A stretch of 64,000 bases of DNA from positions 2,057,380-2,121,379 of the forward strand of contig NZ_CP088017.1 in assembly GCF_021049285.1 (NCBI RefSeq), written 5' to 3'. A program made the translations under genes and the position numbers. Below, in pieces: positions 4,969-64,000 of this stretch. Below the pieces are notes generated by a model, which searched no databases, was not told the origin of the DNA, and saw only the letters and a list, made by a program, of their open reading frames with translations. The first letter of the stretch is position 1. The number at the start of each line of letters is the position of its first letter. Source of the stretch: Ruania halotolerans. GTDB taxonomy: Bacteria; Actinomycetota; Actinomycetes; Actinomycetales; Beutenbergiaceae.

Positions 4969-6456
4969 TCAGTGGGTGAGTACCTGCTCCTCCTGGGCGG
5001 GCTGCTCTGCTGAACGGATGAAGAACGAGGCCACAATCACCGTCAAGGAGATCACCGCGCCGCACATGAATGCGGCACGGGTACCGGCGGCCGTGGCATG
5101 AACCACGTCGGCCCCACCATCGGCTGCGGCCACCCGGTTGATCGTCAGGAGTACCACGAACAGCGCCGTGCCTGCGGCTCCGGCGAGCTGTTGCATTGCC
5201 CCGACGATGGCACTGCCATGGGAGTACAAGTGTGCGGGAATCGAGCCGAGGGACGTGGTGAACAGCGGGGTGAACAATAGGCCCAGGCCGAGGCTGAGGA
5301 GCACGTGTGCACCGAGCACCATCGAAGCGGGCGTTTCCGCGGTGAGCAGCGTGAGACTCCACAGCGCGGCGCTGACGACGATCGCCCCCGGTGTGACGAG
5401 CACGCGGGGCCCGAACCGGTCGTAGACACGTCCGGCGATCGGCCCGAGCAGGCCCATCGCCAAGCCCCCAGGAAGAAGGATGGCACCGATGGCGAGGGGT
5501 TCGAGCCCAAGGACGTTCTGCAGGTAGATGGGCAACAGGATGATCGTGCCGAACAGCGCCATCATCATGAGCAGCATCATCGTGAGTGCGACGGTGAACG
5601 TTCGTGAGGTGAAGACACGCAGGTCAAGTAGCGCGCGATCGCGGCGTTGCAACGCGATCTGACGTGTCACGAACAGGGCGAGCATCACCACGCCGATGGT
5701 GATCGGAACAGGCGCCGGGAGGAACGGTTCACTGTGCGCCGCTTCACCGAGAGTGCTCAGGCCGTAGATCAGACCACCGAATGCGAACGCGGAGAGCACG
5801 ATCGAGAACACGTCGAGCGGGACCGCCCGTGGCGTCGTCACGTTGGGGATCTTGCGCCCGCCGAGAACCAGCGCGGCCACCGCGATGGGCAGTACCACCC
5901 AGAAGATTCCCGACCACGGCATCACGGCGAGGATCGCCCCCGAGGCGGTCGGACCGACCGCGGGTGCGACGGCCATCACGATCGAGACGTTGCCCATCGT
6001 CTTGCCCCGTAGCGCCGGTGGCACCACGGTCATCAGCGTCGTCATCAGCAGTGGCAGCATCATGGCCGTCCCGCTGGCTTGGATGACGCGGCCCAGCACG
6101 AGCATCCCGAACCCGACGGAGACCGCAGCCGTGAGGGTTCCCGCGGTGAACAGGGCCATCGCCGTGAGGTAGATCGTGCGGGTGTGGAATCGTTGCAGGA
6201 GATACCCGGTCACCGGGATCACCACGGCCATGGTGAGCATGAATGCCGTCGAGAGCCATTGACCCGTGCTCTCGGTGACGCCCAGGTCGATCATGATGCT
6301 CGGAATGGCGACGCTCATGATGGTCTCGTTCAGAATGACCACGAATGAAGAGACGAGCAGCAGGCCGATCACGAGTTTGGTCTGCGGATCGAGCCGTTCC
6401 TGCCCGGTGGCTGGTGTGCCAGAGACCGTGTGCTCGGAGTAGCTGGAATCGGTCAC
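4969..6456 (-). CDS. DHA2-family (EmrB/QacA-type) MFS drug exporter
   Basis: Proton-coupled multidrug efflux permease of the DHA2 family; 495 residues with about 14 predicted helices. Visible marks are LNETIMSVAIPSI in helix 1, TGYLLQRFHTR in the helix 2-3 loop (motif A region), GRVIQASGTAMM, and the antiporter motif region APAVGPTASGAIL in helix 5. Start GTG 6456 is chosen because AAGGA lies seven bases upstream; the open frame extends 25 codons further into sequence without family character. It is a single-gene unit convergent with the preceding gene; no adjacent TetR/MarR regulator is seen. The substrate cannot be predicted. Confidence 0.9.
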   Translation of the reverse strand: MTDSSYSEHTVSGTPATGQERLDPQTKLVIGLLLVSSFVVILNETIMSVAIPSIMIDLGVTESTGQWLSTAFMLTMAVVIPVTGYLLQRFHTRTIYLTAMALFTAGTLTAAVSVGFGMLVLGRVIQASGTAMMLPLLMTTLMTVVPPALRGKTMGNVSIVMAVAPAVGPTASGAILAVMPWSGIFWVVLPIAVAALVLGGRKIPNVTTPRAVPLDVFSIVLSAFAFGGLIYGLSTLGEAAHSEPFLPAPVPITIGVVMLALFVTRQIALQRRDRALLDLRVFTSRTFTVALTMMLLMMMALFGTIILLPIYLQNVLGLEPLAIGAILLPGGLAMGLLGPIAGRVYDRFGPRVLVTPGAIVVSAALWSLTLLTAETPASMVLGAHVLLSLGLGLLFTPLFTTSLGSIPAHLYSHGSAIVGAMQQLAGAAGTALFVVLLTINRVAAADGGADVVHATAAGTRAAFMCGAVISLTVIVASFFIRSAEQPAQEEQVLTH

Positions 6457-10610: not shown

Positions 10611-11482
10611 CCCGGTATCCCGTGCCGCAGGGCACGTCCACGAGCACCCGGTTCGCCGCGACCGGTGGACGACGCCCCGATGCATCGATGACGCTGCTCA
10701 ACGAGGTGATGGAGCGGCCCCTGGACCTCGGGTACGCGGCCGCGAGTGATGCGCGCCGGCGTGGCGTGGCCACGCCCCAGACCCCGGTGCGGCGCAGCGT
10801 GACCTTCCTCCTCGCGGTGCTCCTCGGGGTGGTGGCGGTGTGGGCGGCGCGTGAGCTCCGTGCGCCGGTGGAGTTCGAGAATGCCTCTGACGTATTGGTC
10901 GAGGAGATCAGGGGTCGCACGGCGATCGGTGATCGGCTCGCTGAGCAGAACGAGGAGCTACGACAGGAGATCACCGAACTCCAGGCGGAGGCGATGGGTG
11001 AGGATGCGGAGGAGTTCCTTGCCGACTCCGCCCGTTTGGGCCTGTGGGCGGGCGCAACTGCGGTCCAGGGCACGGGCATCGTGATCACCGTTGAGGACTC
11101 GGTGCAGGCGCGCAACCAGGAGCCGGGCGCTGAGGACGGCAGGGTGCGGGATTCGGACCTGCAGTTCGTCGTCAACGGTCTCTGGGCGGCCGGGGCGGAG
11201 GCAATCGCCGTGAACGGCCATCGCCTCACTGGGCACACGGCCATTCGTACTGCTGGAGACGCCGTCCTGGTCGACCTGCAGCCGCTGGTCTCGCCGTATC
11301 GGATCGAGGTCATCGGTGACCCTGACGACCTGCGGACGGAGTTCGCCCGGACGCAGGCATCGGCGATGTTGAATCAACTGGCTGCCCGCCACTCCATTGC
11401 CTCGTCAATCGAGACGGCGGACAAGCTCGTGCTCCCTGCCGGCACCGCAGGCCAGCCTGACGTTGTGACGGAATCGTCATGA
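10607..11482 (+). CDS. DUF881 membrane-anchored protein (first copy)
   Basis: A 291-residue DUF881 protein: about 62 cytoplasmic residues, one helix (VTFLLAVLLGVVAVWAA), a coiled-coil stretch rich in Glu/Leu (LAEQNEELRQEITELQAEA), then the DUF881 domain with the family segments GTGIVITVEDS, DLQFVVNGLWAAGAEAIAVNGHRLT, and VSPYRIEVIGDP. The arrangement resembles sporulation protein SpoIIQ-linked and division-site DUF881 proteins, but its role is unknown. It is translationally coupled to the pgsA-like gene and followed by sbp. The Asn-Gly-Leu-Trp and Ala-Ile-Ala-Val-Asn motif are well conserved here. Confidence 0.88.
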   Translation: MTRYPVPQGTSTSTRFAATGGRRPDASMTLLNEVMERPLDLGYAAASDARRRGVATPQTPVRRSVTFLLAVLLGVVAVWAARELRAPVEFENASDVLVEEIRGRTAIGDRLAEQNEELRQEITELQAEAMGEDAEEFLADSARLGLWAGATAVQGTGIVITVEDSVQARNQEPGAEDGRVRDSDLQFVVNGLWAAGAEAIAVNGHRLTGHTAIRTAGDAVLVDLQPLVSPYRIEVIGDPDDLRTEFARTQASAMLNQLAARHSIASSIETADKLVLPAGTAGQPDVVTESS

Positions 11483-57038: not shown

Positions 57039-58184
57039 GTGATGACGTGGCGGGACGGCGTGGTGCACGCCGTGGGGAACCGGTGGCCCGGTGCAGTGGA
57101 GATCGAGGTCCGGCTCACCGTCAGCAGCGGGCACGAGCCCGCCCGCGGCGAGATGGTGCGGGCCTTGGCCTATCCGGAGCTCGTCGGTGAACCCGAGCCG
57201 GGCGACCGGGTTCTGGTGTCCACCACGGCGCTTTCGCGAGACCTCGGCACCGGCGGGTACGCCTTTGTGGTGGCCCGGCCGGACACCTTGCCCGATGACC
57301 CGCCTGCGGGACCGGGTCACATCATGAAGGCCCGGTACACCCCGCTCCAGACGATGGTGCTCGGCGTGGACGAACAGGAGTCCCCGGCCCACGAGGTACT
57401 GCGGGATGCCGACGACATCGCCGGTATGCCCGTGGTGATCGCAGACCTGCACTCGGCCCTGCCGGCGATCCTGGCCGGGGCGCGCTATGAGGCGTCGCGG
57501 CTCGGGCGCCCGGTTCCGTCGGTGGCATACCTGATGACCGACGGCGGCGCCTTGCCGGCGTGGTTCTCCCGCACGGTTGCCGTGCTTCGTGAGGTCGGCT
57601 GGCTGCAGGCCACGATCACAGTCGGCCAGGCGTTCGGTGGCGATCTGGAGGCGGTGACGGTGCACTCCGGACTCCTCGCCGCGCATCTGGTCACTCATGC
57701 GGACTTCGTCGTGGTCGCCCAGGGCCCGGGCAATCTCGGCACGGGGACCCGATGGGGGTTCTCGGGCGTGGCCGCGGGTGAGGCGGTGAACGCCGCTGCC
57801 ACGTTGGGAGGCCGCCCGGTCGCCAGCCTGCGAGTCTCGGGTGCCGATCCGCGGGAGCGGCACCGTGGGATCTCCCATCACAGCATGACGGCGTACGGGC
57901 GAGTAGCGTTATGCCCTGCTGATATCGCCGTCCCGGTTCTTGCGGGTGAGCTCACCGACCTCGGTGCGCAGGTGCAGCGCCAGGCCGGCGCACTGGCGAG
58001 TCGGCACCGCTTGGTGCCAGTGCCCACCGGTGGGCTTCTGGACGCGTTAGCACAGGCCCCGGTGCGGTTGTCCACCATGGGTCGCGGCCTTGCGGACGAC
58101 CCCGGCTCGTTCCTAGCGGCCGCTGTCGCCGGCGTCCATGCCGCCCGGCTCGTGGCGGGCCACCAGGGCGGCGAGCCGTCGTGA
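57039..58184 (+). CDS. DUF3866 protein
   Basis: A 381-residue soluble protein of the actinobacterial DUF3866 family, function unknown. Segments include GHIMKARYTPLQTMVLGVDE, DLHSALPAILAGARYEASRL, and VAQGPGNLGTGTRWGFSGVA, FADDPG-like SFLAAAVAG at the end. Adjacent to pafB in most genomes, divergently transcribed. TAGATT (57027-57032) lies six bases before GTG 57039, suggesting leaderless expression (GTG 57036 also possible). The last 72 bases overlap the convergent PH-domain gene. Confidence 0.85.
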   Translation: MMTWRDGVVHAVGNRWPGAVEIEVRLTVSSGHEPARGEMVRALAYPELVGEPEPGDRVLVSTTALSRDLGTGGYAFVVARPDTLPDDPPAGPGHIMKARYTPLQTMVLGVDEQESPAHEVLRDADDIAGMPVVIADLHSALPAILAGARYEASRLGRPVPSVAYLMTDGGALPAWFSRTVAVLREVGWLQATITVGQAFGGDLEAVTVHSGLLAAHLVTHADFVVVAQGPGNLGTGTRWGFSGVAAGEAVNAAATLGGRPVASLRVSGADPRERHRGISHHSMTAYGRVALCPADIAVPVLAGELTDLGAQVQRQAGALASRHRLVPVPTGGLLDALAQAPVRLSTMGRGLADDPGSFLAAAVAGVHAARLVAGHQGGEPS

Positions 58185-58565
58185 TTCCTTCCGGGCCCGT
58201 TCGCCGTCCACCCGCTGGATCGCCATCACGGCCAGCACGCTACCGTCGCTGAGATCGAGCGATACCCAGTCCCGTTCGCCGAAGCGCACGCCGACGATCT
58301 GCGCCCAGTCGACTCTTCTGCTCGAGACCACATTGCGGACGAAGAGTCCGCGCGCATCGGGGATCGCGGCAAGACTGGCGAGCCGCACCAGCAGCACTGA
58401 GATCAACGCTACGAGGAGGCCGGCACCCACATGCGTGGCAGGGTCGGCGAGGTCGCGCGTGGCCAGCACGAAGACCATCCACCCGCCGCCTAACCACCCG
58501 ATCACCCCGAAGCTGACCAGGCGCGTGGCGCGTGGCCGGAACGGTGCGTACGGGCCGGCAGTCAT
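58113..58565 (-). CDS. PH-domain membrane protein
   Basis: A 150-residue protein with two helices (LVSFGVIGWLGGGWMVFVLA, AGLLVALISVLLVRLASLAA) and a C-terminal bacterial PH-like domain (LFVRNVVSSRRVDWAQIVGV, RFGERDWVSLDLSDG). In many actinobacteria this gene follows ribH or hisG. It begins seven bases after the hisG stop, and overlaps the convergent DUF3866 gene by 72 bases. Confidence 0.75.
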   Translation of the reverse strand: MTAGPYAPFRPRATRLVSFGVIGWLGGGWMVFVLATRDLADPATHVGAGLLVALISVLLVRLASLAAIPDARGLFVRNVVSSRRVDWAQIVGVRFGERDWVSLDLSDGSVLAVMAIQRVDGERARKESRRLAALVARHEPGGMDAGDSGR

Positions 58566-58572
58566 CGGCGGT

Positions 58573-59418
58573 TCAGAGCCGGCTCGCGTGTATCCCGGTC
58601 ACGATGATCGCGCGGGCACCGAGCTCGTACAGCTGATCCATGATCGGATTGGTTTGGCTACGCGGCACCATGGCGCGCACGGCCTTCCACCCCGTGTCGT
58701 GCAGCGGCGAGACTGTCGGTGACTCCAGCCCCGGGGTGACGGCGACGCAGGCGTCCACGTGCTCCACCGGGCAGTCGTAATCCATCAGCACGTACTTGCG
58801 CGCGACCAGTACGCCGTTCAGGCGGCGATCCAGGGTCTCCAACCCGGGCTTCACCTCGGCATTGCTGGGTCGGATCAACACGGCCTCGGACTGCAGGATC
58901 GGCTCACCGAATACGTGCAACCCGGCTGCGCGGAGTGTGCCGCCGGTCTCCACCACGTCGGCCACCAGATCGGAGACCCCGAGCCGCACCGTCGACTCGA
59001 TCGCCCCGTCGAGACGCACCACGTGCGCCTCGATTCCCCGTTCGGCGAGGTAATTGCCGACGAGGTGGGCATAGCTGGTGGCCACCCGCTTACCGTCGAT
59101 GTCGGCCAGGGACGTCACGCTCTCCGGCGGGCCAGCGAACCGGAAGGTGGACGCAGCGAAGTCGAGCGCGCGATGCTCGATGGCGTCCACTCCGGAGTCG
59201 AGCAGCAGATCGCGACCGGTGATGCCGGCGTCGACCACACCTTCTCCGACATACACGGCGATGTCACGAGGGCGCAGGAAGAAGAACTCGACGCCATTCT
59301 CGGGGTCCGGCAGCACCAGCTCGCGGCCGTCGCGGCGCTGCCGGTAACCCGCTTCGCGCAGCATCTGGCTCGCAGGCTCGGAAAGGGAACCCTTGTTGGG
59401 CACAGCAATACGGAGCAC
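58573..59418 (-). CDS. hisG: ATP phosphoribosyltransferase
   Basis: First enzyme of histidine synthesis: ATP + PRPP to N1-(5-phosphoribosyl)-ATP. 281 residues, the long form with a C-terminal ACT-like regulatory domain ([39 protein letters not shown]). Catalytic part: [40 protein letters not shown], and [20 protein letters not shown] (PRPP loop). GTG 59418 has GAAGGA six bases upstream; the preceding frame is not coding. hisE is 43 bases upstream. Confidence 0.95.
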
Positions 59419-59461
59419 GGGGGTCCTTCGGGTCGTGATGTGGGGTGGGGGAAGAGGCACC

Positions 59462-59725
59462 TCACAGGTGCGTGTAGACGTCCTCGAGAGTAAGTCCGCG
59501 GGCGATCATCATCACCTGCAGGTGATAGAGCAGTTGGGAGATCTCCTCGGCGGCCTCGGCATCGCTTTGATACTCCGCAGCCATCCACACCTCGGCGGCC
59601 TCTTCGACGATCTTCTTGCCGATCGTATGCACACCGGCGTCCAGCTCGGCCACGGTGCCCGAGCCGGCCGGGCGGGTCTGTGCCTTGTGCTGAAGTTCAG
59701 CGAAGAGGTCGTCGAAGGTCTTCAC
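59462..59725 (-). CDS. hisE: Phosphoribosyl-ATP diphosphatase
   Basis: Second step of histidine synthesis: hydrolyses phosphoribosyl-ATP to phosphoribosyl-AMP. 87 residues, MazG-like all-helical fold with [15 protein letters not shown] and [17 protein letters not shown] (EExxE ... ExxD-type metal motif). GTG 59725 starts 11 bases after the ribY-type stop, so hisE-hisG are probably co-transcribed with the vitamin transporter under the FMN riboswitch. Confidence 0.95.
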
Positions 59726-59736
59726 GTGGCAAGAGC

Positions 59737-60780
59737 CTACTCGTCATCGGTGAAGGCATCGTTATACGCCTCATCTGCTGGGACGGTCGTCTCGGTCAGT
59801 CCCGCCTCGGCGAGGAAGGCCGACATCTCCCGCCATGGTCCGGTGTGGGAGCCCCAGCCCGGCCCCGGCTCCCCGTACAGCGGAACGGTCGCCTCCATCG
59901 TGGCGCGCATGATCGCCTCCTGCTCAGCGTCCACGGTGCCGGGGATCTCCTCGATCGCAGCGTGCACACCGAGTGAGGGGTCGGCCACGATATCGGCCAC
60001 GGCACGTTCCACAGCGCTGACGACACCGCGTAGTGCCTCTGTCTCGGTGGTGGTCAGGTCCTCGGTGGTGCCCAGGCCGATCCCGACCAATGGCACGTCC
60101 CCGATCGGGACTGCGCGCACATCCAGGCCGGTGGCGGCGAATTGGGGGATGTCGTTGTTCTGATAGCCCATCACGGCGTCCACGTGACCTTCACTGAGGG
60201 CCGACTGTTGCGTGAAGCCGATGTGCTCGATCGTGACGTCCGCTTCGGTCAGGTCCGCCTGCGCCAGCATGGCGAGCAGGCCGAAATACGTCTCTCCGAA
60301 CGGCCCGGGGACGCCGACGGTACGCCCAGCCAGATCGGCCGGCGATTCGATCTCGGAATCCGTGGGAACAATCAGCGCAACCGGGTACGAGGTGTACAGG
60401 GTGGCGATACTGACCACGGGGACGCCCTGGTCGCGCGCCTGCATCATCTCGTCCCCGCCGGCGACGACCACCTGTTCGGTGCCATCAGTCAGCGCTCCGA
60501 ACAGGTCTTCGGACTCCCCGTGGTGACGCAACGTCACATCCACACCGGCCTCATCGAAGTACCCTTCCTGCTCAGCGCGATAGAACGGCGCGAACTGCAC
60601 GTTCGGTACGTAGGTGAGCCCGATGGTGAGCGAGGGTGCCTGACCGGCGGATGCACCGCCGTCGGACGTTTCCGGCTCCTCAGTGGCCGGGGCGGTGCAC
60701 CCGGCGAGGGCAGTGGCAAAGGTGACGCAGGCTGCGGCGAGCAGCGTGCGCCGTCGTGGGTGATGCGGGGAGGTCACCAT
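59737..60780 (-). CDS. ribY: Vitamin ABC transporter substrate-binding lipoprotein (NMT1/THI5-like, predicted RibY)
   Basis: A 347-residue lipoprotein of the NMT1/THI5-like ABC binding-protein family. Signal peptide with RRR, hydrophobic stretch and lipobox LAGC (Cys28). The mature domain has [80 protein letters not shown] and [11 protein letters not shown]. Thiamine-precursor, pyrimidine and riboflavin binding proteins share this fold; the FMN riboswitch upstream selects riboflavin (RibXY type). It overlaps the permease stop by seven bases. The ligand is inferred, not shown. Confidence 0.8.
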
Positions 60781-61577
60781 CGGACTCTTCTCTCCAGGGC
60801 TCGTACGAGCAGGTAGAACCCGACCGCGCAGGCGGCCAGGACGATCAGGGTGGCGAACATGCCGGTGGTGTCGGACCGGTCACGGTAGATGGAAAGCAGC
60901 AGCCCCAGGCCCTGTCCGCCCATCACGAACTCCCCCACGACGGCGCCGGTAATGGAGAGCACGAAGCCGTTGCGTACACCGGCGAGCACCGAGGGCATCG
61001 CCAAGGGGGCCTCGATGTGCAGCAGCATTCGCCATCGTCCGGCGCCGTCGAGTTGGGCGGCGCCGAGAATGTCCTCATCCAATCCGGCCAGGCCCAGGGC
61101 CGTGTTCACGACGATCGGGAAGAACACCAGGAGCGCGCACAAGAGCGCGACCGGGAGCAAACCGTACCCGAACCAGAGCACGATCAAGGGAGCGAGCGCA
61201 ACGGCTGGGATGGCCTGGGTGGCGGCGAGATAGGGACCGAGCGCGGCAGACGCGGCTCGTGAGCGGGCGATCAGGTAGCCGAGCGGCAGGGCCACCACCA
61301 GGGCGATCAGACAGCCGAGCAGGCTCTCGGTCAGCGTGGTGCCGGCGTAGGTGAGGATGTCGCCGTCGCGAAACTCGGCGATCAGTCGCTGCAGCAAGGC
61401 AGTGGGCGCGGGCAGCACGCGGGAGCTCGTGACGCCGGCGATGAGTTCCCAGAGGAGGAGACCTGCGGCGCCCAGAACCACCGGAGCAACCACCGATGTG
61501 CCGACCAGGTCTGCGGCATCGGCCGCGCGCGGGGTGCGCGCACGCATCGCAGACGGGCTGCGGCGGAGCCTGGACAT
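60774..61577 (-). CDS. ribX: ABC transporter permease for vitamin uptake (predicted RibX)
   Basis: A 267-residue binding-protein-dependent permease, six helices, BPD_transp_1 type. The EAA loop is GAAQLDGAGRWRMLLHIEAP, with preceding VALAPLIVLWFGYGLLPVAL; related to ThiX/SsuC-type permeases. ATG 61577 with GGGGAGAGGA nine bases upstream is chosen; the frame extends upstream into the riboswitch. No ATPase gene lies in this operon, as reported for RibXY-type systems; a shared ATPase would be encoded elsewhere. Confidence 0.82.
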   Translation of the reverse strand: MSRLRRSPSAMRARTPRAADAADLVGTSVVAPVVLGAAGLLLWELIAGVTSSRVLPAPTALLQRLIAEFRDGDILTYAGTTLTESLLGCLIALVVALPLGYLIARSRAASAALGPYLAATQAIPAVALAPLIVLWFGYGLLPVALLCALLVFFPIVVNTALGLAGLDEDILGAAQLDGAGRWRMLLHIEAPLAMPSVLAGVRNGFVLSITGAVVGEFVMGGQGLGLLLSIYRDRSDTTGMFATLIVLAACAVGFYLLVRALERRVRW

Positions 61578-61592
61578 CGGCTGCGATCCTCT

Positions 61593-61665
61593 CCCCAGGT
61601 ACTCCCGGGGTCGGACCGACGGGCACCGCGCCACGTCGATCCTCGGCGTCACCGATTGCGGTGAC
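61593..61665 (-). promoter_or_regulatory. Expression-platform region of the FMN riboswitch
   Basis: Two hairpins lie between the aptamer and the ribX start. The first, GTCACCG-CAAT-CGGTGAC (61665-61648), has seven perfect pairs. The second, CCCCGG...CCTGGGG (61610-61593), pairs bases of the ribX ribosome-binding site GGGGAG. No T-run follows either, so control looks translational: ligand-induced folding would expose or hide the ribosome site. Confidence 0.55.
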
Positions 61666-61670
61666 CCCGC

Positions 61671-61792
61671 GTGCTTCCTCCCATCCGGACTTTCACCGTC
61701 GGTCCTGGAGTTTCACCAGGTCAACCGGCCGCCGAAGCGGCCGGGTCGCGGACTGTCACCGCCGGTTCGGACTTTCACCGACCCCGGAGCAC
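61671..61792 (-). promoter_or_regulatory. FMN riboswitch (RFN element)
   Basis: On the minus strand the conserved RFN blocks appear in order: GGGGTCGGTGAAAGTCCGAA, ACCGGCGGTGACAGTCCGCG, the variable hairpin CCGGCCGCTTCGGCGGCCGG, TTGACCTGGTGAAACTCCAG, GACCGACGGTGAAAGTCCGG, and ATGGGAGGAAGC. P1 closes with GTGCT (61792-61788) and AGCAC (61675-61671). This is a complete FMN aptamer. It lies after rpe and directly before ribX. Confidence 0.97.
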
Positions 61793-61867
61793 GTTGGACT
61801 CTGGCGCCATTCTGTCATATGCGTCCGTGCCCGGTGACGAGCACCGCTGCGCGGCCACCGGCGCACA

Positions 61868-62575
61868 TCAGCTGGTGTACGCGCTGGTGGCGGCGGCACG
61901 CAGAGCGGTGATCTCGGCGTTCGGATCCTCGGCCGAGTACACGGCCGAACCCGCCACGAACATGTTCGCCCCGGCGGCGGCGGCGGTGCCGATGGTGTCC
62001 CGGGAGATCCCGCCGTCCACCTGCACCCAGATGTCCCCGCCGCGGGCGGTGATTGCGCTGCGGGTGCGGCGGATCTTCGGCAGTGTGCCTGTGATGAACG
62101 ACTGGCCGCCGAAGCCTGGCTCGACGGTCATCACGAGCACCATGTCGAACTCGTCGAGAAGGTCGAGGTATCCCTCGATCGGCGTGGCGGGACGAAGTGC
62201 GAGTCCTGCTCGTGCGCCCTTGGCGCGAAGCTCGCGAGCGAGGCGCACGGGCGCGTTCGAGGCTTCGGCGTGGAACGTCACCGATGCTGCTCCGGCCTCG
62301 GCGTAGCCGGGCGCCCACACGTCGGGTGCCTCGATCATCAGGTGGACGTCGGCAGGTACCGAGGTGGTAGCGAGCACGCGTTCGACCACGGGCAGCCCGA
62401 AGGTGATGTTCGGAACGAAGTGGTTATCCATGACGTCCAGGTGCACGAAGTCAGCGGCGCCGATCCGCCCGATCTCGTCGGTCAGGTTGGCCAGGTCTGC
62501 GTTCAGCACGCTCGGGGAGATCAGGATCGGCACGGCCGGATCGTCCGGTGTGGCAGGGGCTGGCTCTGTCGTCAT
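61868..62575 (-). CDS. rpe: Ribulose-phosphate 3-epimerase
   Basis: Interconverts ribulose 5-phosphate and xylulose 5-phosphate (pentose phosphate pathway), 235 residues, TIM barrel. Signatures: [79 protein letters not shown], and [16 protein letters not shown] 62575 is chosen for a normal N-terminus with a 15-residue Pro-rich lead. It lies between rsmB and the riboswitch, as in the conserved rsmB-rpe-rib locus. Confidence 0.95.
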
Positions 62576-62625
62576 GGGCGCCAGCCTAGCTTTCTCGCGG
62601 TGCGGGCAGATCGGCGGGCGGGGCG

Positions 62626-64000
62626 TCAGCGCCGGATCAGGGCGAGGAACATCGCGTCGGTACCGTGCCGGTGCGGCCACAGCTGCAGGTATGGGCCGTC
62701 CTGGTGATACTGGCCAGTCAGTGGCGTCGGGCTCACCTGAGAAGCCACCTCGACGGCGTCCAGCACCTGCGCATGTTCGGTGCGCTTAAGCACGTCCTCG
62801 ACCACCATCCGGGTCTCGGCCACGTGTGGCGAGCAGGTCACGTAGGCCACCACTCCCCCGGGCCGGGTCGCCGCCAGGGCCGCGGTGAGCAGCTCCCGCT
62901 GCAGCGGGCCCAGGGTGGCCAGATCCGTGGGGGTGCGGCGCCAGCGGGCCTCGGGGCGGCGGCGCAGCGCCCCCAGACCGGTACACGGGACGTCGACGAG
63001 GACCCGATCGAAGCCGCCAGCGGGTCCGGCGCGGCCGGCGTGTTCGGGTCCGACCTCGCGTCCGTCACCGGTGCGGACCTCGAGTCCGGGGAGCACCTCG
63101 CGCAGTGCTGCCGTTGATTGCTCGACCAGACGCGCGCGGTGCGCGGAGATCTCGTTCGCCAGCAGGCGGCCTCCGGGAGCCCGTTCGGCGAGCAGGGCGC
63201 CGAACAGGGCCGCCTTGCCGCCCGGTCCGGCGCACAGGTCGAGCCAGCTGGAGTCCGAGCCGTCCAGGGGTGCAGCGGCGGCTGCGAGGGTGACGAGTTG
63301 GCTGCCTTCGTCTTGTACCCCGGCGCGGGAGTTGCGGACTGCATCGAGCGCGGCGGGATCGCCGTGGGCCAGGAGGCGTGCAGTGCGCGTCCATTGGCCA
63401 GGTGCCGCATCCGGGACATCCTCATCGGTGGACAGCCCGGGGCGGAGCACCACGGTGACGGCGGGCGCGGTGTTGTCCGCCTCGAGGAGTGCCGGAAGGT
63501 CCTCGGCGCCCTGGGATGTCTCGGTCAGCGCATGGCGCAGTGCTCGCACGATCCAGGCGGGGTGAGAGGAGGTGAGCGCGAGTCGCTCGGTCTCATCCGT
63601 GATCTCGCTGCCGATGATCTCGAGCCACTCCTCGAGCGGGCGCTGGGTGACTTGGCGCAGGATCGCATTCACGAACTGGGCGGCGCCGGCTCCGACAGTG
63701 GAACGGGCGAGACCGACCGTGGCGGAGACGGCTGCGTGATCCGGCACGCGCATCGCAAGCACCTGATGTGCCCCGAGCCGGAGCACGTCCAGGACCGGCG
63801 GATCGAGCTGCGCGAGCGGACGGGAGGAGACAGTCGCGATCACAGCGTCGTATCGGTCGCGATAGCGCAGGGTGCCGTAGGCGAGCTCGGTGGCGAATGC
63901 GGCGTCCCGGCCACGGACACCACGCTGGCGGAGCATCGGCGGCAACGTCAGGTTGGCGTAGGCATCCGAGTCGGCCACGGTGCGCAGCGTGTCGAACGCC
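62626..64000 (-). CDS. rsmB: 16S rRNA (cytosine-967-C5)-methyltransferase, 5' end outside window
   Basis: C-terminal portion (about 457 residues) of RsmB/Fmu, which methylates C967 of 16S rRNA. N-terminal NusB-like domain: [56 protein letters not shown]. Methyltransferase: [20 protein letters not shown] (motif I), [38 protein letters not shown] (motif IV with Cys), [15 protein letters not shown] (motif VI catalytic Cys). The frame stays open to the window end, reading [13 protein letters not shown] before it, so the start is beyond base 64000. rpe is 50 bases downstream. Confidence 0.95.

Follow-up and report, generated by a model that had tools for sequence, protein, structure and literature searches.

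A RibXY-type importer with an FMN riboswitch in the rpe-hisE slot of Ruania halotolerans, and the distribution of riboflavin synthesis among related actinobacteria

A 64,000-nucleotide (nt) stretch of the genome of Ruania halotolerans (the window; positions 2,057,380-2,121,379 of a single 4.27-Mb contig, completeness 100) carries the genes of a RibXY-type importer, ribX and ribY, behind a complete flavin mononucleotide (FMN) riboswitch aptamer. Both genes lie between rpe and hisE, the slot that holds the riboflavin biosynthesis (rib) operon ribD-ribE-ribBA-ribH in several other families. The explanation which we favour, with good confidence, is that an FMN riboswitch-controlled flavin importer took over the rib operon slot, that riboflavin synthesis became dispensable, and that some of the present rib operons were not inherited vertically.

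RibXY under an FMN riboswitch is already known from Actinobacteria, in genomes that have the biosynthesis pathway and in others that lack it (PMC4418817, section 15 and Table 2). The exchange within the slot and the mixed origin of the rib operons are well supported as the new elements; among the records listed by a literature search, outside which most subscription journals lay, neither was described. The locus would represent a natural case of a lineage passing from making a vitamin to importing it, in which the neighbours, and often the place of the riboswitch, are retained and the cargo is exchanged. From it, riboflavin auxotrophy is predicted for a number of actinobacteria, a trait that plate growth would reveal, and the question arises whether synthesis can return by gene transfer once uptake is fixed.

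Importer genes in the rpe-hisE slot

The locus was analysed with Pfam, NCBIfam and Rfam searches. All the features of the gene order given in the preliminary description were found, including the full aptamer, which exceeded the curated Rfam gathering score. No other Rfam match at gathering scores was obtained in the whole window. The features, all encoded on the minus strand within 58113-64000, are the following:

62626-63999, minus strand: rsmB, outer flank, truncated at the end of the window (PF01189 and PF01029 over cut-off)
61868-62575, minus strand: rpe, ribulose-phosphate 3-epimerase, ATG start, flanking the slot upstream (TIGR01163, 249.8 bits, over cut-off)
61795-61668, minus strand: FMN riboswitch aptamer (RFN element), complete (RF00050, model positions 1-138, 98.1 bits with gathering at 66.2, E 1.7e-21)
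61644-61669, minus strand: hairpin adjoining aptamer stem P1 (folding and alignment of 12 leaders)
61593-61610, minus strand: predicted hairpin CCCCGGG...CCTGGGG sequestering the Shine-Dalgarno (SD) sequence (folding and alignment of 12 leaders)
60774-61577, minus strand: ribX, ATP-binding cassette permease of the importer (PF00528, 114.4 bits)
59737-60780, minus strand: ribY, NMT1-type substrate-binding lipoprotein (PF09084, 140.9 bits)
59462-59725, minus strand: hisE, flanking the slot downstream (NF001610, 161.4 bits, over cut-off)
58573-59460, minus strand: hisG (TIGR00070, 177.8 bits, over cut-off)
58113-58565, minus strand: gene with a bPH_6 domain (PF10756, 51.7 bits)

The RsmB models of NCBIfam matched below their cut-offs, and no NCBIfam model exceeded its cut-off for ribX or ribY. 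For ribX the ATG at 61577 is the preferred start, near which the alignments of relatives begin at several loci; a GTG at 61652 is possible. The start of hisG is more likely at 59418, the TIGR00070 match beginning at residue 16. The aptamer follows the end of rpe by 72 nt, ribX and ribY overlap by 7 nt, and gaps of 11 and 7 nt separate ribY from hisE and hisG from the bPH_6 gene. The tight spacing from ribX to hisG is consistent with a single transcript through hisEG, and ribX-ribY are probably co-transcribed with hisE-hisG.

A permease (PF00528) and an NMT1-type binding protein (PF09084) encoded together, with an FMN riboswitch upstream, characterize RibXY-type importers, so that protein families, gene order and riboswitch all support the assignment made earlier. 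In the parts of the literature consulted here, RibXY of Chloroflexus aurantiacus (Caur_0816-0817) and its actinobacterial orthologues show the same arrangement, i.e. an FMN riboswitch and, in one operon, a permease and an NMT1/COG0715-type binding protein without an ATPase gene (PMC4418817; PMC3766115). Compared by domains, order and riboswitch, the present locus differs from these published systems in that it lies in the native rib operon slot, packed with hisE-hisG.

The assignment of this slot to the rib operon was assessed in a sample of 297 genomes of the order, of which 210 were RibH-positive outside the family of the window (f1, 24 genomes) and its sister family (f3, which includes Georgenia). 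The RibH locus was fetched for 45 of these 210, from 15 families, and its genes were mapped by tblastn. In 20 of the 45 loci, from seven families (f5, f6, f9, f10, f13, f14 and f16), the rib genes are immediately preceded by rpe and immediately followed by hisE, which bears out the expectation that rib operons occupy this place elsewhere. An FMN aptamer stands 16-229 nt after rpe in the nine slot loci that were measured; among the other 11, eight have FMN matches of unchecked place and three (f10) have none. Slot, flanks and a closely following aptamer are thus common to these loci and the one studied here, the difference being that the cargo is synthesis there and uptake here.

Within f1, RibY and an FMN aptamer were present in 24 of 24 genomes. 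The order rpe-ribX-ribY-hisE-hisG was recovered in 23, and the contig of the 24th begins at RibY; with such recurrence the gene order is not due to chance. In f3, where 25 genomes have RibY, rpe-ribX-ribY was found in 14 of the 18 RibY loci fetched; 11 of these continue with hisE-hisG and three have no hisE or hisG match nearby. The four remaining loci have ribXY beside an inverted hisGE. The slot comparison and the loci of relatives together support a substitution in situ with the flanks kept, and this exchange is family-wide and also found in the sister family. By their binding protein, the closest named relatives belong to Ruania (71-75% identity), Occultella (69-70%) and Georgenia (52-60%). 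Over the order, RibY was detected at E<=1e-30 in 52 of the 297 genomes (23 from f1, 25 from f3 and four others).

In the f1 ribXY loci, the aptamer lies 31-276 nt after rpe in nine of the 15 measured. A tree of 60 aptamers, in which five of 56 branches were supported and long branches were joined, did not separate a riboswitch kept in the slot from one brought with ribXY. The f3 loci with inverted hisG-hisE belong to genus g27 (L268, L269, L270 and L277), and no rpe was detected in the sequence retrieved for them. In the loci of G012, G013 and G284 (L122, L123 and L276), 3.1-4.3 kb of other sequence stand between rpe and the FMN aptamer, indicating that the slot takes further insertions.

Riboflavin synthesis and the origin of the present rib operons

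A loss of riboflavin synthesis had also been proposed, with a whole-genome search for ribD, ribE, ribBA and ribH as the test of auxotrophy. All four genes are present, adjacent and open, at C1:611,231-615,012, about 1.5 Mb from ribXY. The Pfam domains expected of each product were matched over cut-off. Just upstream lies a second FMN aptamer (611,023-611,153, 94.9 bits). Intact ribD-E-BA-H under their own FMN riboswitch rule out auxotrophy for this genome, and from its gene content the strain should be a riboflavin prototroph.

The proposed loss is nevertheless likely for other members of the family. RibH (PF00885) and RibBA (PF00926) were found together in 14 of the 24 f1 genomes, and neither was found in the other 10; among control genomes both searches were positive in 14 of 14. 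Nine of the ten negative genomes are 95-100% complete; the tenth (G018) is a fragmented assembly of 92% which may simply miss the operon. Riboflavin auxotrophy is therefore predicted as likely in 10 of 24 f1 genomes. Over the order, RibH was absent in 29 of the 52 RibY-positive versus 38 of the 245 RibY-negative genomes (counted from the listed rows).

The relationships of the rib operons were compared with those of the slot flanks. In a tree of RsmB, Rpe, HisE and HisG, f1 and f3 together stand on one side of a branch with a support of 98 (Shimodaira-Hasegawa-like approximate likelihood ratio test), and f1 groups within with 92. The rib tree was made from RibE, RibBA and RibH (62 rows, 776 columns) and replaced an earlier FastTree of RibD, RibE, RibBA and RibH. 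Groupings were examined with the approximately unbiased (AU) test, those for f1 and f1+f3 corresponding to given families and the others being chosen after seeing the tree. Forcing all 14 rib rows of f1 and f3, the doubtful metagenome-assembled genome G003 and one further row included, into one clade cost 307 log-likelihood units (AU p 3e-12). Without G003, a single clade of Ruania, Occultella/g8 and Georgenia was rejected (p 2e-67), as were Ruania with Georgenia (p 0.0014) and Occultella/g8 with Georgenia (p 4e-8). A rib clade of Occultella and g8 was not rejected (AU p 0.43). Judged by these trees, the rib operons of f1 and f3 have at least two origins, at least one of which is not vertical inheritance, since they do not form one clade while the flank genes group.

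Sequence identities between G013 and G014, both of genus g8, point beyond this: RsmB, Rpe, HisE, HisG, RibX and RibY are 82-91% identical but RibD, RibE, RibBA and RibH only 53-64%. In their congener G012 neither RibH nor RibBA was found. The surroundings of the rib operons were compared by matching the open reading frames (ORFs) of four reference loci to 19 rib loci; no neighbour common to Ruania, Occultella, the two g8 species and Georgenia was found at a corresponding place, and one weak match (39%, G014 to Occultella G009) lay at a different relative place. As regards a possible donor of the Ruania rib operon, the best RibBA matches in a 396-genome sample of the phylum belong to f20 (58-61%), the two same-order rows listed having 55 and 58%, but the AU test does not reject a place inside the native rib clade of the order (p 0.75). 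Repeated gain of rib operons within the family is likely on this sequence evidence.

Two side observations concern individual genera. In Occultella (L132, L134, L136 and L138) the rib neighbours of G008 and G011 agree and those of G009 and G010 are unmatched at the same place, yet between G008 and G009 the Rib proteins show 80-88% likeness. In Georgenia sp. EYE_87 (L069), FMN aptamers were located at 5635-5760 and 11099-11233, so that the aptamer of ribXY is accompanied by a complete rib operon with its own aptamer. This locus and L080 show the same gene order, with the rib operon just beyond DUF3866.

Proposed function, control and history of the importer

RibXY very probably imports riboflavin or another flavin. 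The arguments for this substrate are the FMN riboswitch in all f1 genomes, the position in the slot, and the fact that each of the ten family members in which RibH and RibBA were not found has RibY. In addition, RibXY from C. aurantiacus is reported to rescue a riboflavin-auxotrophic Escherichia coli (PMC4418817, where the orthology threshold for RibY is 38% identity over 80%). The AlphaFold model of RibY (mean predicted local distance difference test score, 84.8) displays a periplasmic binding-protein fold of the same family as ThiY of the ThiXYZ system, and its best match is 3ix1 (TM-score 0.84 by target length, 22% identity). The locus differs from ThiXYZ in having an FMN and not a thiamine pyrophosphate (TPP) riboswitch, rpe and his genes as flanks, and no adjoining ATPase gene. 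The TPP riboswitch of ThiY-type loci was not found at gathering scores in the window. Among the ORFs listed near a Streptomyces ribXY locus (L079) no ATPase partner was seen by eye, a family search not having been made and the present genome being unsearched for one.

Control of the importer was addressed by folding the leader and by an alignment of 12 leaders (eight from Ruania, four from Occultella). Four pairs of the SD hairpin are invariant in all 12, and the fifth is G-C in nine and G-U in three. In the hairpin beside P1, some pairs are altered on both sides between species with the pairing kept. The SD hairpin suggests translational control of ribX by the FMN riboswitch. At high FMN the aptamer would close, the hairpin would cover the SD sequence of ribX and translation of the importer would stop; at low FMN the leader would refold and the importer would be made. 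Translational control would leave hisE-hisG expressed from the same mRNA.

As for the history of the locus, ribXY would have entered the rpe-hisE slot before f1, and probably also f3, diversified. Riboflavin synthesis would then have been dispensable, many descendants being now without it, and other descendants, this genome included, would have come to possess a rib operon elsewhere in the genome, likewise under FMN regulation. A more specific version, held tentatively and close to an even call, is that the importer replaced the rib operon in situ in the ancestor of the two families and the slot was kept from then on, while riboswitch-bearing rib operons disappeared and returned repeatedly at various places in the genome. 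Such turnover would extend down to genus g8, where one species is without an operon and two others carry distant ones; prototrophy would be a trait in turnover on top of a fixed uptake system.

A number of results speak against the favoured explanation and are weighed here with the alternatives. The other 25 of the 45 rib loci lie elsewhere or show one neighbour only. The aptamer is 678-4121 nt from rpe in six of the 15 f1 loci measured, the tight spacing thus not being universal, and 38 genomes of the order lack both RibH and RibY, meaning that RibH loss is commoner with RibY yet also occurs without it. Owing to these last two points, both the favoured explanation and its more specific version are held slightly less firmly. 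The AU test did not reject Ruania with Occultella/g8 as one clade (0.237), Ruania inside the native rib clade of the order (p 0.75), Occultella/g8 inside that clade (0.073) or G013 with G014 (0.334). The placement of Ruania would suit a displacement in which the insertion of ribXY moved a vertically inherited native rib operon that was later lost in some lineages, the tree conflict reflecting uneven rates. The two Georgenia loci (L069 and L080), where the rib operon lies about 3.5 kb past ribY, are a possible intermediate of such a local displacement. This course of events is nonetheless rather unlikely in view of the rejected groupings with Georgenia, the different insertion sites of the rib operons, and the low Rib identity between G013 and G014 whose flanks are closely alike. 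Distant operon types within a family could also have arisen without horizontal gain, if the rib operon had been duplicated long ago and the copies lost differentially; two rib clusters are known from one Streptomyces davawensis genome (by a reference title in PMC4418817). This alternative is given little credence, because RibH is single in each of the 14 RibH-positive f1 genomes and in 224 of the 230 positive genomes of the order.

Similar care is needed for substrate and control. The solved structures nearest to RibY bind 4-amino-5-hydroxymethyl-2-methylpyrimidine (HMP; 22% identity) or thiamin (19%), or are Thi5, and no flavin-bound RibY is among those matching. Homologues of the RibY family in other phyla carry TPP, ykkC or T-box elements (PMC4418817, in the part consulted), and among 10 Streptomyces RibXY loci, six were scanned and four of these are without an FMN aptamer above cut-off, one of the other two having an aptamer before ribY and the other only on the opposite strand. 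In family f16 the aptamer was found at one of two RibXY loci. FMN control is therefore not universal in the RibXY protein family, and the importer might carry a thiamine precursor or another heteroaromatic compound, the FMN riboswitch being a leftover of the old rib leader. This is quite improbable. HMP- and thiamin-binding neighbours are expected of RibY, as RibXY is described as homologous to ThiXYZ without the ATPase (PMC3766115, in the part consulted); moreover, a mere leftover is at odds with the aptamer kept throughout f1 and with the aptamers that precede ribXY at loci of other families lying outside the slot (G033, G202 and G094, though not G053). In the ten f1 genomes without RibH and RibBA, the only FMN aptamer found is that of ribXY, other flavin transporter types (RibM, RibU etc.) not having been searched for. 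Regarding control, the invariant pairs leave the SD hairpin without covariation support, and the unconstrained fold forms this hairpin too, so that folding gave no distinct alternative (ON) structure. The riboswitch might instead act by transcription termination and shut off hisE-hisG as well, and several strong hairpins do follow the aptamer in the folded leader. Termination appears improbable, with no run of three or more T between the aptamer and the ribX start and with the last leader hairpin covering the SD sequence.

Further observations on related loci

Lone riboflavin-synthase-like genes with two Lum_binding domains were found in five f1 genomes:

G001, C1:2,026,530-2,027,063 (L313)
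G012, C11 (L314)
G018, C313 (L315)
G016, C11 (L316)
G021, C2 (L317)

G001, G012 and G018 are RibH-less and keep this gene without a ribD, ribBA or ribH match beside it. In G016 and G021 the rib operon has no ribE match, and the lone gene may complete the pathway. The neighbours of the gene are common to G016, G018 and G021 only.

On a contig of Streptomyces rubellomurinus (L085), ribXY lies on the plus strand with no FMN aptamer of its own above cut-off, next to an FMN riboswitch and a match to ribBA, both of the minus strand. In G005 (C1:1,309,880-1,310,784, L118) the RibY match is in two pieces in different frames, pointing to a possibly broken gene or faulty assembly. RibY also matched 268 plasmid records, all below 60% identity, the best being a Streptomyces plasmid with 46%.

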